Source: an uncultured Pelagibacteraceae bacterium (GTDB lineage Bacteria; Pseudomonadota; Alphaproteobacteria; Pelagibacterales; Pelagibacteraceae). From it: a stretch of DNA of 64,000 bases. The first letter of the stretch is position 1. Each line of letters opens with the position of its first letter. Below the pieces are notes generated by a model that was given only the letters and a program-made list of their open reading frames with translations, did no database searches and had not been told where the DNA came from. Of the stretch, positions 45,745 to 64,000 are shown one piece after another. The translations under genes and the position numbers were made by a program. The stretch spans positions 62,001 through 126,000 of the forward strand of contig CACJOA010000002.1 in assembly GCA_902594915.1 (NCBI GenBank). Reading direction: 5' to 3'.

Positions 45745-46170
45745 ATGTCAGATACCATTGAACAAAAATGTTTATCTAAAGGAGTTAAACTCACAGATCA
45801 AAGAAAAATTATAGCTAGAGTAATTTCAGAATCTAAAGCAGAGTATGGTGAGTCAGACCATCCTGATGTTGATGAACTTTATAGTAGAGTTTCAAAAATT
45901 GACCCAAAAATAAGTATCGCAACAGTTTATAGAACAGTAAAATTATTTGAAGAGGCGGGAATTTTAACCAAACATGATTTTAAAGGTGGAAAAGCTAGAT
46001 ATGAAATTAATGATGATCATAATCACTTAATAGATATCAAAACAGGAGAAATAATTGAGTTTGTTGATGATGAAATTGAGGAATTACAAAAAAAAGTCGC
46101 AGAAAAGTATGGTTATAAATTAGTAGATCATAAATTAGAACTTTATGGGGTAAAGAAGAAACCTCAATAG
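45745..46170 (+). CDS. fur: Fur-family metal-responsive repressor (Fur/Mur type)
   Basis: 141 residues. Winged-helix part: VKLTDQRKIIARVI, then HPDVDELYSRVSKIDPKISIATVYRTVKLFEEAGIL (recognition helix), read here in two pieces. The metal-binding domain has NDDHNHLIDIKTGEIIEF and an HxE-type C-terminus; the structural CxxC zinc pair is absent. Alphaproteobacterial homologues at this place next to miaB are often manganese-sensing Mur rather than iron-sensing Fur; sequence alone does not decide. Confidence 0.9.
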   Translation: MSDTIEQKCLSKGVKLTDQRKIIARVISESKAEYGESDHPDVDELYSRVSKIDPKISIATVYRTVKLFEEAGILTKHDFKGGKARYEINDDHNHLIDIKTGEIIEFVDDEIEELQKKVAEKYGYKLVDHKLELYGVKKKPQ

Positions 46171-60067: not shown

Positions 60068-61279
60068 TTAAACTTTCTCAAAAACTAAAGCAGCATTTGT
60101 TCCACCAAAACCAAAACTATTTGACATTACAGTGTTCAAAGTTACCCCTGTTTCAGTTTTAGAAACTATTGGAAATTTTTTAGCATCTTCATCCATTTCA
60201 TTAATGTTAGCTGAAGCTGCAATAAAATTATTTTTCATCATTATCAAACAATAGATTGCTTCATGTACTGAGGCAGCTCCTAATGGATGCCCTGATAAAG
60301 ATTTTGTTGAGCTAATTTTAGGAATATTATTTTCAAAAGTATCTTTAACTGCATTTAACTCTGTAATATCTCCAACTGGTGTAGATGTGCCGTGAGTATT
60401 TATATAATCAATTTTATTTTTTGTTGTCGCCATAGCCATTTTCATACACCTTATAGCACCTTCGCCTGATGGTGCTACCATGTCATATCCATCTGATGTT
60501 GCTCCATAACCAGTCAATTCAGCATATATTTTTGCTCCTCGAGCTTTAGCATGTTCATACTCCTCTAGAACTAAAACTCCACCACCACCTGCAATTACAA
60601 AACCATCTCTAGTTTTATCATATGCTCTTGAGGCCGTTTTTGGAGTATCATTATACTTTGATGATAAAGCAGTCATTGCATCAAACATTGCGGTCATTGC
60701 CCAATGAATTTCTTCACTTCCTCCCGCAAATACAATATTTTGTTTACCCATTTGAATTAGTTCCATAGAGTTTCCAATACAGTGTCCGCTAGTTGCACAA
60801 GCCGAGCTCATTGTGTAGTTTGTTCCTTTTATTTTAAACGGTACAGCAAGTGTTGCAGAAGCTGTACTTGCCATCGTTCTAGGAACAATAAATGGTCCCA
60901 TTAATTTTGGAGTTTTAGCTCTAGTTTTGTCAGCTGCCAAGATTACATTTTCAATTGAGGGTCCTCCTGAGCCCATAACAATCCCAGTTTTAAAATCACT
61001 TACTTCTTTTTCTTCCAAGCCAGAGTCTTTAATTGCCTCTTTCATTGCAATATAATTATAAGCTGAGCCAGACCCCATAAACCTTATAGTCTTTCTGTCT
61101 ACATAATCCTCAAGTTTAATATTAGGTTTTCCATGAACATGGCTTTTCAAATTATGTTCTTTGTATTCTTCAGAAAAAGAAATCCCAGATTTTGAGTTTA
61201 AGAGTGACTGGTAAACCTCTTCTTGATTGTTACCTAAACAAGACACTATACCTAAACCTGTAATTACTACTCTTCTCAT
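60068..61279 (-). CDS. fabB: 3-oxoacyl-[acyl-carrier-protein] synthase I FabB
   Basis: 403 residues. [15 protein letters not shown] at the start, active-site Cys in [14 protein letters not shown] near residue 162, and the two catalytic His in [12 protein letters not shown] and [14 protein letters not shown]. The pairing with fabA makes it FabB rather than FabF. It elongates unsaturated intermediates. It overlaps fabA by one base. Confidence 0.97.
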
Positions 61280-61779
61280 TATTTAAAAAGTCCTACCTTT
61301 AAGCTCTCTGCCGAATATATTTTTTTACCATCTGCTATAACCATTCCATTTGCAAGACCCACGGTTGTTCCTCCTGGAGACATAATTTTTTTCATGTCTA
61401 TTTCATACTTAACTAACTTCACATTTTGTAAAACTTCGCCAGTAAATTTTACAGTTCCAACTCCTAAGGCCCTTCCTTTTCCTGGATTTCCAACCCATCC
61501 TAAATAAAAACCCACTAACTGCCACATTGCATCGAGTCCTAGACATCCAGGCATTACTGGATCGTCTTTAAAATGACAATCAAAAAACCAAAGATCATTC
61601 TTAATATCTAGTTCAGCTCTTAAAAATCCTTTTTTAAAAGTTCCTTTATTATCATTAATTTCTGTTATTCTGTCAAACATGAGCATAGGTGGAAGGGGCA
61701 ATTTTGCATTACCTGGGCCGAATAATTCACCATTAGCGCAATTAATTAGTTCATTATATGTAAATGAATTTTTTTTCAT
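61279..61779 (-). CDS. fabA: 3-hydroxydecanoyl-ACP dehydratase/isomerase FabA
   Basis: 166 residues. [15 protein letters not shown] near residues 27-41, [28 protein letters not shown] near 69-96 with the catalytic His and Asp (motif [14 protein letters not shown]), and the C-terminal [13 protein letters not shown]. It introduces the cis double bond for unsaturated fatty acids. First of fabA-fabB-fabI, it diverges from irr; a promoter TTGCCC-N17-TATATT lies at 61847-61819. Confidence 0.97.
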
Positions 61780-61847: not shown

Positions 61848-61863
61848 TTTTAGATTATATTAT
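61835..61863 (+). promoter_or_regulatory. Promoter of irr, overlapping the fabA promoter
   Basis: TTGTTA (61835-61840), a 17-bp spacer and TATTAT (61858-61863). Transcription would begin near 61870, a few bases before the GTG at 61873, giving an almost leaderless irr mRNA. Its -35 element lies within the fabA promoter spacer. Confidence 0.5.
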
Positions 61864-61872
61864 ATTTTTGTT

Positions 61873-62271
61873 GTGAAATATATTGAAAAATTAAGAAATT
61901 CTGGATTAAGACCAACAAAACAAAGACTTCAAATATGTGAGGTCTTATTTGGCACAAGAAAAACATTCCATTTTACCATCAATGATCTAGTTAAAAAAAT
62001 TAAAAAACAAATTAATAATAATATTTCACTTGCGACCTTATATAATACTGTGCATGCTTTTGAGAAAAAAGGATACTTAAAACGAATTCCAATTAATTCA
62101 AATCAGACATATTTTGATACAAATATTTCTGAGCATCATCATTTTTATGATTTAAAAGAGGAAAGATTAATTGATCTAGAGAATGCTGATGTCGGGCCAA
62201 TAAATATTAAAAAAAAAATTAATGGAAAAAAAATTAAGTCGGTTGAAGTTCTTGTAAAACTTGAAGATTAA
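61873..62271 (+). CDS. irr: Fur-family regulator Irr (iron/haem response)
   Basis: 132 residues from GTG at 61873; TTG or ATG codons at 61801-61810 would add a poorly conserved hydrophobic leader and overlap the fabA promoter. LRNSGLRPTKQRLQICEVLF near residues 6-25 and SLATLYNTVHAFEKKGYLKRI near 55-75 form the winged helix; SEHHHFYDL near 93-101 carries the HHH haem/metal motif typical of Irr. Irr controls haem synthesis, iron uptake and iron-using enzymes according to haem status. Its place beside fabA is conserved in alphaproteobacteria. Confidence 0.88.
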   Translation: MKYIEKLRNSGLRPTKQRLQICEVLFGTRKTFHFTINDLVKKIKKQINNNISLATLYNTVHAFEKKGYLKRIPINSNQTYFDTNISEHHHFYDLKEERLIDLENADVGPINIKKKINGKKIKSVEVLVKLED

Positions 62272-62279
62272 TATTTGAT

Positions 62280-62294
62280 ATGACATTATGTCAT
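62280..62294. promoter_or_regulatory. 7-1-7 inverted repeat upstream of the katG promoter
   Basis: ATGACAT (62280-62286) and ATGTCAT (62288-62294) are exact complements around a single T, 15 bp before the katG -35 element and just after the irr stop. Its placement suits an activator or second regulator site. No known consensus is recognised. Confidence 0.5.
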
Positions 62295-62309: not shown

Positions 62310-62338
62310 TTGACAGCTCTTTAGAATCATTATAAACT
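62310..62338 (+). promoter_or_regulatory. katG promoter with overlapping Irr-box-like operator
   Basis: A perfect TTGACA -35 at 62310-62315 is followed by TAAACT 17 bases later (62333-62338) or TATAAA 15 bases later (62331-62336). Over the spacer and -10 lies TTTAGAA-TCA-TTATAAA (62320-62336), which matches the Irr iron-control element TTTAGAA-N3-TTCTAAA at 13 of 14 arm positions. Irr is encoded immediately upstream, so repression of katG by Irr is a direct prediction. Confidence 0.6.
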
Positions 62339-62358
62339 AAACAGTAAGGAGACAACTT

Positions 62359-64000
62359 ATGAGTACAGAAAGTCATAAAAATAAATTATTTAAATCAGAA
62401 CAACTTAACAAATGTCCAATCACCGGAGCAGGAACTTCTGCAAAGTTTTCTGCTGGTAAAGGTCAAACGAATAGAGATTTTTGGCCGAATAGTTTAAACC
62501 TAAAAATATTAAGTTTACATTCAGAGTTGTCAAATCCAATGGATAAAAAATTTAATTATACCAAAGAATTTAAAAAACTTAACTTTAAGGCCCTTAAAAA
62601 AGATTTAAAAAAATTAATGACCGATTCCCAAGAGTGGTGGCCAGCAGATTATGGTCATTATGGACCATTATTTATTAGGTTGGCGTGGCATGCTGCTGGT
62701 ACTTACAGAACTGGTGATGGAAGAGGTGGGGCCGGTACGGGAAATCAGCGATTTGCACCACTAAACGCTTGGCCAGATAATGTAAATTTAGACAAAGCAA
62801 GGTTATTACTTTGGCCAATTAAAAAAAAGTATGGAAACAAAATATCTTGGGCTGATTTATTCATTTTAGTAGGAAATGTTGCTCTAGATTCCATGGGATT
62901 TAAGACATTTGGATTTGGAGCTGGTAGAAAAGATATTTGGGAACCTGAAGATGATATTTACTGGGGTTCAGAAAAAGAAATGTTAGCTGTAAATAGATAT
63001 AGTGGAGAAAGAGATTTAGAACAGCCACTGGGAGCTTCGCATATGGGTTTGATTTATGTAAACCCGCAAGGACCAGATGCTAACCCTGATCCATTACTTG
63101 CAGCACATGATATAAGAGAGACTTTTGGAAGAATGGCTATGAATGATTATGAAACAGCAGCTTTAGTTGCTGGTGGTCATACTTTTGGTAAGTCACATGG
63201 AGCAGCCCCAGAATCTCATAAAGGACCAGATCCTGAAGCCTCAAGAATACAAGATCAGGCGACAGGGTGGAATAGTAATTACAAATCTGGAAAAGGTGTT
63301 GATACTATAAGTAGTGGTATTGAGGGTGCATGGACTCAGAACCCGATTAAATGGGATATGGGATATTTAGATTGTTTATATGGCCATGAGTGGGAATTAA
63401 CAAAAAGTCCGGCAGGCGCTCACCAATGGACGCCTAAGAAAAATGGGCAAGAGATTAAAATGGTTCCAGATGCCCATGATAAGAATGTATTGCATCCTCC
63501 TATGATGCAAACAACTGATATTTCTCTTAAAGTTGATCCAAGTTACGGTCCAATAACTAAACATTTTCATGAAAATCCAAAAGAATTTCATGATGCATTT
63601 GCAAGAGCTTGGTTTAAATTAACTCATAGGGATATGGGTCCAAAAGCTTGTTATCTTGGTGGCGATGTTCCAAAGGAGGAATTAATTTGGCAAGATCCAA
63701 TAGATAAACCAAAATATAAACTTAAAAAAAAAGATATCAAAAATTTGAAATCTAGAATTTTAAAATCTAAAATTTCTATCTCAGAGTTAGTTTCTACTGC
63801 TTGGGCTTCAGCATCAACTTTTAGAGGTTCAGATAAGAGAGGTGGTGCAAATGGAGCTAGAATAATGTTAGAGCCTCAAAAAAATTGGGATGTCAATAAC
63901 CCAGCTAAATTATCAAAAATCATCTCTAATTTAGCTAAAATTAAGAAACAATTTGATAAGAAAAACAAATGTGTTTCTATGGCTGACCTGATTATTTTGG
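62359..64000 (+). CDS. katG: Catalase-peroxidase KatG, N-terminal part (3' end outside window)
   Basis: The frame is open from ATG 62359 to the window end (547 codons); full KatG has about 720-750. AAGGAG at 62346-62351 is a strong ribosome binding site. The distal haem residues are Arg107, Trp110 and His111 ([10 protein letters not shown]). The Trp-Tyr-Met adduct residues are Trp110, Tyr233 (GLIYVNP) and Met259 ([10 protein letters not shown]), and the proximal His is 274 (VAGGHTFGK). It degrades hydrogen peroxide and needs haem, made in part by hemE/H/G in this window. The second, non-catalytic half begins near residue 430. Confidence 0.97.

Follow-up and report, generated by a model that had tools for sequence, protein, structure and literature searches.

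The 87 bp gap between irr and katG, near the end of the 64,000-nucleotide stretch of Pelagibacteraceae (SAR11) DNA analysed here (the window), raises the question of whether the Irr box (ICE motif) lying in it is an operator through which the neighbouring regulator governs a haem peroxidase. The motif, TTTAGAATCATTATAAA, is found 4 bp past the TTGACA hexamer, 48 bp after irr and 22 bp before katG. It is one mismatch from TTTAGAANNNTTCTAAA and is the sole one-mismatch site in the window, in agreement with the near-perfect ICE claimed in the first-pass annotation. That annotation placed the motif over the spacer and -10 of a promoter with a perfect -35, directly downstream of irr; the coordinates hold, with the -10 corrected to TATAAA or TAAACT, both of which fall within the right half-site and give spacers of 15 and 17 bp, respectively. 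The features are collected in Table 1. The irr reading frame as listed starts at a TTG (61801) and its stop codon occupies 62269-62271. In the whole genome the katG frame comprises 751 aa, and the window KatG scores 824 bits against TIGR00198 (cat_per_HPI; cut-off 770.25). An Asp/Asn beta-hydroxylase-like gene (PF05118) lies directly after katG, just past the window (G000:C2:126624-127220, L308).

Table 1. Features of the irr-katG locus (positions in the window).
Feature	Position	Strand	Basis or remark
-35 hexamer TTGACA, perfect	62310-62315	+	read from the sequence
ICE / Irr box (site B) TTTAGAATCATTATAAA	62320-62336	+	13/14 to the ICE consensus
-10 region in the right half of the ICE: TATAAA (62331-62336) or TAAACT (62333-62338)	62331-62338	+	sequence
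Ribosome-binding site AAGGAG	62346-62351	+	sequence
katG (catalase-peroxidase)	62359-64000 (gene cut by the window end)	+	TIGR00198; ATG at 62359
irr, Fur superfamily, Irr clade, 132 aa from GTG	61873-62271	+	Pfam FUR, NCBIfam
Putative decayed irr self-control ICE TTTAGATTATATTATAT	61849-61865	+	relatives have a 12-13/14 site there, immediately past the irr -10
fabA, divergent from irr and conserved beside it	61279-61779	-	gene context

Taken from the window sequence alone, the ICE of the katG promoter is weak evidence, suggestive only, because pattern searches with mismatches allowed returned ~8 one-mismatch matches, mostly intragenic, from the whole genome containing the window (G000; 1.05 Mb, ~29% GC, 88.6% complete), and because a reversed control pattern was commoner than the ICE motif at up to 2 mismatches. 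In resampled copies of the irr-katG gap, a 13/14 match was obtained in 0.02%. It is the position of the motif, together with its conservation in relatives, that makes the observation convincing.

Conservation was assessed in 80 irr loci, of which 74 are SAR11 loci with katG (46) or the rubrerythrin gene rbr (28) directly after irr; two of the remaining six are SAR11 records, with neither katG nor rbr recognised. An ICE-like site (at least 11/14) adjoins TTGAC in all 74 irr-peroxidase promoters. The katG regions beside irr reach at least 12/14 in 46/46 cases and 13/14 in 43/46 (~1% and 0.09%, respectively, in the resampled null), and the rbr regions reach at least 12/14 in 27/28. In the katG alignment, whose rows were picked at 11/14 or better, so that column conservation is somewhat inflated, identity is 84% or higher in 16 of the 17 columns and 93% or higher in 15. 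The ICE is near-invariant outside its centre, while the stretch from TTGACA to the site is variable. Position 12 is A instead of the consensus C in 42/43 katG promoters, because this position belongs to the -10 hexamer. The first-pass annotation had named absence of the motif from relatives with irr-katG adjacency as the observation that would count against its proposal; the motif is kept in them, and also away from irr, in two genomes (G074 and G100) where katG follows a tRNA gene and is nevertheless preceded by CTTTAGAATCATTATAA(A). The region upstream of irr itself carries an ICE of at least 12/14 in 61/73 relatives, just after the irr -10, as would be expected of a self-repressing regulator.

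The ICE occupies two positions in these promoters. Site B covers the -10 and site A abuts the -35, with starts usually 30-32 bp apart where both are present. The 46 katG promoters comprise 26 with B only, 17 with both and 3 with A only, and the 28 rbr promoters 18 with A only, 9 with both and one with B only. Site B (43/46 katG versus 10/28 rbr) marks katG and site A (27/28 rbr versus 20/46 katG) marks rubrerythrin, an association that partly reflects shared ancestry. The katG promoter of the window has site B only (13/14), site A being decayed to 6/14. A perfect palindrome upstream of the -35, ATGACATTATGTCAT (62280-62294), occupies the place of the relatives' site A; it was considered as the true operator and rejected, for lack of conservation and because ~2% of resampled gaps contain a palindrome of this kind.

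The first-pass annotation had suggested a search for further ICE motifs at haem, iron-sulfur and iron-uptake genes. In the window genome, none of the other one-mismatch ICEs that were read is at the promoter of an iron, haem or peroxide gene, and most are intragenic; Sfu/FbpA and 1-Cys peroxiredoxin, sought there as ICE targets, gave no match (genome 88.6% complete). The best ICE score upstream of the window irr is 10/14, so that, with this self-site and site A both eroded, no good ICE promoter other than that of katG was found in the genome, within its 88.6% completeness. Among relatives, the 1-Cys peroxiredoxin gene has an ICE over TATAAT in five genomes of family f2 and in some of family f1, whereas other f1 genomes keep the TATAAT and have no ICE. 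The promoters with and without the motif provide a naturally occurring control for dependence on Irr (L252-L255 and L261-L269 compared with L249-L251 and L256-L260 share the TATAAT and differ in the ICE). A second peroxiredoxin-like gene in relatives is also preceded by an ICE motif. The f2 promoters of fbpA, which encodes the iron-transport protein FbpA, carry a GATAAT-type Fur box together with an ICE-like site close to where transcription starts (L271-L291), which suggests that they may be under dual Fur/Irr control.

The identification of the neighbouring gene as irr in the first-pass annotation stands. Its product has a Fur-family domain (PF01475, E 1.7e-19), and its best NCBIfam matches, both below cut-off, are IrrA (121 bits, cut-off 150) and Irr (113.5 bits, cut-off 170), ahead of the next match, PerRA (55.8 bits), by ~60 bits. 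The P. ubique-type Irr is likewise under cut-off (133.5 bits). The HHH stretch (HXH haem-binding motif) is invariant in 7 SAR11 Irr sequences. The Cys-Pro haem regulatory motif is present in some Irr only, and the window Irr has no CP. The fabA gene is near irr in SAR11 and also in Hyphomicrobiales whose Irr clear the NCBIfam cut-offs. By profile and context, the window regulator appears to be a divergent branch of the Irr clade, with Irr as its nearest family. Among PDB matches none is named Irr, so no solved Irr structure was found.

The genome was also described earlier as poor in regulators, and this agrees with the two Fur-family genes and the lack of any LysR/OxyR match (PF00126) in its 88.6% complete sequence. 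In relatives, the number of Fur homologues reaches three. The second Fur-family gene of the window (Fur-like, 141 aa) is located at 45745-46170 (+), upstream of a MiaB-like gene. OxyR was considered as the regulator and rejected: besides the window genome, 0/12 genomes of family f2 have any LysR, and the common LysR of family f1 has no cysteine and thus cannot be a thiol-based OxyR. A SAR11 LysR without cysteine is encoded beside the sfu/fbp iron transporter (L247, L248).

The slot after irr in SAR11 is nearly always filled with katG or rubrerythrin, never with both. Among 397 genomes of the SAR11 order, 232 have katG, 131 have the slot rubrerythrin and none has both; over all genomes searched the numbers are 246 and 143, with an overlap of 0. 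A simple estimate under independence gives an overlap of 77. The genomes are related, and therefore the number of switches is a better measure than the expected overlap: a FabA+Irr tree with 74 species gives at least 4 to 5 katG/rbr switches. Rubrerythrin is in the slot of about a third of relatives, which the first-pass annotation had overlooked, together with the second ICE of many promoters and the lack of other good ICE promoters among those found in the window genome. Each enzyme comes with its own cassette. The katG cassette includes the Asp/Asn-hydroxylase-like gene in 31/46 loci (never with rbr) and often a small membrane protein, the rbr cassette a GlpC/Hdr-like Fe-S protein (28/28) and DUF3501, and the two are mixed at none of the irr loci read. 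In most loci read the flanks are stable: irr precedes the slot, and an SH3 protein and a ThiF/MoeB-like gene are found at its other end. In four species whose FabA+Irr fall among those of rbr species, katG nests inside the katG of the window clade and the promoter keeps the two-site form of the rbr sisters, which points to cassettes being exchanged beneath a resident ICE promoter. The ICEs are retained with either cassette. Four deep species (L218-L221) have site B and, in the same irr slot, a KatG 53% identical to that of the window, a deeply separate lineage that perhaps represents an independent filling of the slot.

Haem-free Irr binds the ICE, and the position of the site decides between repression and activation (PMC7762939). 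We consider it probable that 62320-62336 is an Irr operator over the katG -10, at which haem-poor Irr blocks katG, and that the arrangement is the one conserved in the SAR11 slot. Irr binding, the haem effect and repression at katG would all follow known Irr biology. As the site lies on the -10, the prediction is repression by haem-free Irr, with katG expression confined to conditions of available haem; the sign given in the first-pass annotation, katG off in haem-poor cells, fits site B in this predicted direction. Haem-poor Irr would bind site B and keep RNA polymerase off the promoter, and plentiful haem, perhaps together with peroxide, would release it so that KatG is made. With katG turned off at haem shortage, no haem would be spent on an enzyme that cannot be filled. 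The proposed unit would consist of irr, an ICE-bearing promoter and an exchangeable cassette with either katG (haem) or rubrerythrin (di-iron), the latter with the Fe-S oxidoreductase and DUF3501. The ICE in 74/74 promoters, its presence in G074 and G100, the self-ICE of irr, the ICEs at peroxiredoxin and iron-transporter genes and an Irr-like regulator next door all argue for this operator; the scores of that regulator below the NCBIfam cut-offs argue against it.

On the direction of control, a single response is published for an orthologous promoter, a mild induction of rbr in P. ubique. The rbr promoter in the genome that we take to be that of the P. ubique strain has both sites, with a site B of only 11/14. 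P. ubique encodes Fur and Irr, its Irr transcript and protein show no clear change with iron, and its rbr (SAR11_0399) rises 1.57-fold on iron limitation (PMC2864753). This rise runs against simple repression by Irr in a haem-poor state; given the weak site B and the additional site A, the response may not carry over to the window. Either site A activates there, or Irr answers mainly to another signal, e.g. peroxide. If the site set the sign, with activation from A and repression from B, haem shortage would raise rubrerythrin and lower KatG, as the distribution of A and B between rbr and katG, the rbr rise itself and the known ability of Irr both to activate and to repress (PMC7762939) would allow. 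However, 17 katG and 9 rbr promoters have both sites, the association is partly one of ancestry and the expression effect is single and small, and we regard this version as rather unlikely. The other branch, in which SAR11 Irr is mainly a peroxide-defence switch replacing OxyR/PerR, and oxidation destroys haem-bound Irr to free katG, rbr and peroxiredoxin, we hold to be unlikely. The ICE targets found are mostly peroxidases, no LysR is found in 12/12 f2 genomes and the common f1 LysR is cysteine-free, and ROS-promoted degradation of Irr is reported in Bradyrhizobium (PMC3413700, PMC7762939); on the other hand, the window Irr is without the CP-type motif, and Pelagibacterales rubrerythrin is in the metaproteome day and night and not obviously oxidant-induced (PMC8707726).

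The site might also be read by another Fur-family protein, either the Fur at 45745-46170 or the third homologue of relatives, as the genome has a second such gene. This is very unlikely, since the motif is of the Irr-clade type and is concentrated around irr, and in f2 the GATAAT-type Fur boxes lie separately beside the ICEs, so that the two are distinct motifs. That no regulator is involved and the promoter is merely a conserved AT-rich one is an idea encouraged by the ~29% GC of the genome and its chance one-mismatch matches. It is hardly credible, given that the half-site TTTAGAA in the spacer is near-invariant while the bases preceding it vary, that some peroxiredoxin promoters share the TATAAT and have no ICE, and that in G074 and G100, where katG has another promoter, the ICE again lies ahead of it. 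The Irr operator over the katG -10 may also be part of a broader scheme, in which cassettes are recombined under the resident ICE of one Irr-governed slot and Irr, at haem shortage, stops the haem enzyme and sustains the di-iron enzyme, so that Irr takes over peroxide defence from OxyR/PerR in the most abundant bacteria of the ocean; as a whole this scheme is rather doubtful.

In other bacteria, peroxide-defence genes are under a dedicated regulator, as in OxyR-katG and PerR-katA, whereas in SAR11 the regulator belongs to the Irr clade and OxyR is absent or not thiol-capable. In R. sphaeroides, mbfA and the haem peroxidase gene ccpA have promoters to which Irr binds (PMC3413700). An Irr box at a haem peroxidase promoter is thus common to both, with direct binding shown there; the enzyme there, however, is the haem-containing cytochrome c peroxidase CcpA in place of KatG, and katE was not bound by Irr (PMC3413700). 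In SAR11, unlike in R. sphaeroides, the target has a fixed place beside its regulator, in a slot whose content can be exchanged. The ferritin-like target also has a counterpart: as cited in PMC3413700, Bradyrhizobium bfr (bll6680) and the rubrerythrin-like blr7895 are Irr-repressed under iron-poor conditions, with the ICE at the transcription start or promoter core. In Bradyrhizobium, Irr regulates iron metabolism globally and has many targets, in contrast to the one good ICE promoter found in the window genome. Both a haem peroxidase gene and a rubrerythrin-like gene with an Irr box are already known, and the SAR11 slot is a variant of known Irr control.

SAR11 katG is published as an offshore trait (PMC12636525) and P. 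ubique is stated to lack catalase (PMC3033426); both concern the same gene and clade, and the passages found mention no Irr slot, ICE or rubrerythrin exclusion. Among gyre SAR11, a minority has rubrerythrin (PMC11366302). In the literature searched, no description of the slot in SAR11, of its ICE or of the katG/rbr exclusion was found, and an earlier prediction in Rodionov 2006 or Rudolph 2006 is possible. SAR11 bacteria have very few regulators and are described as catalase-less, and in most genomes one peroxidase or the other, and no more than one, lies beside a predicted haem sensor, under a promoter with an operator-type motif. Through this slot, the supply of iron and haem is linked to peroxide defence in a concrete way that can be tested, and the distribution of KatG and rubrerythrin would reflect exchange at one locus and not scattered gain and loss. 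Among the katG genes, one genome (G399) has two katG matches, and in another the gene contains an in-frame TAG (G324:C3:73450-75069).
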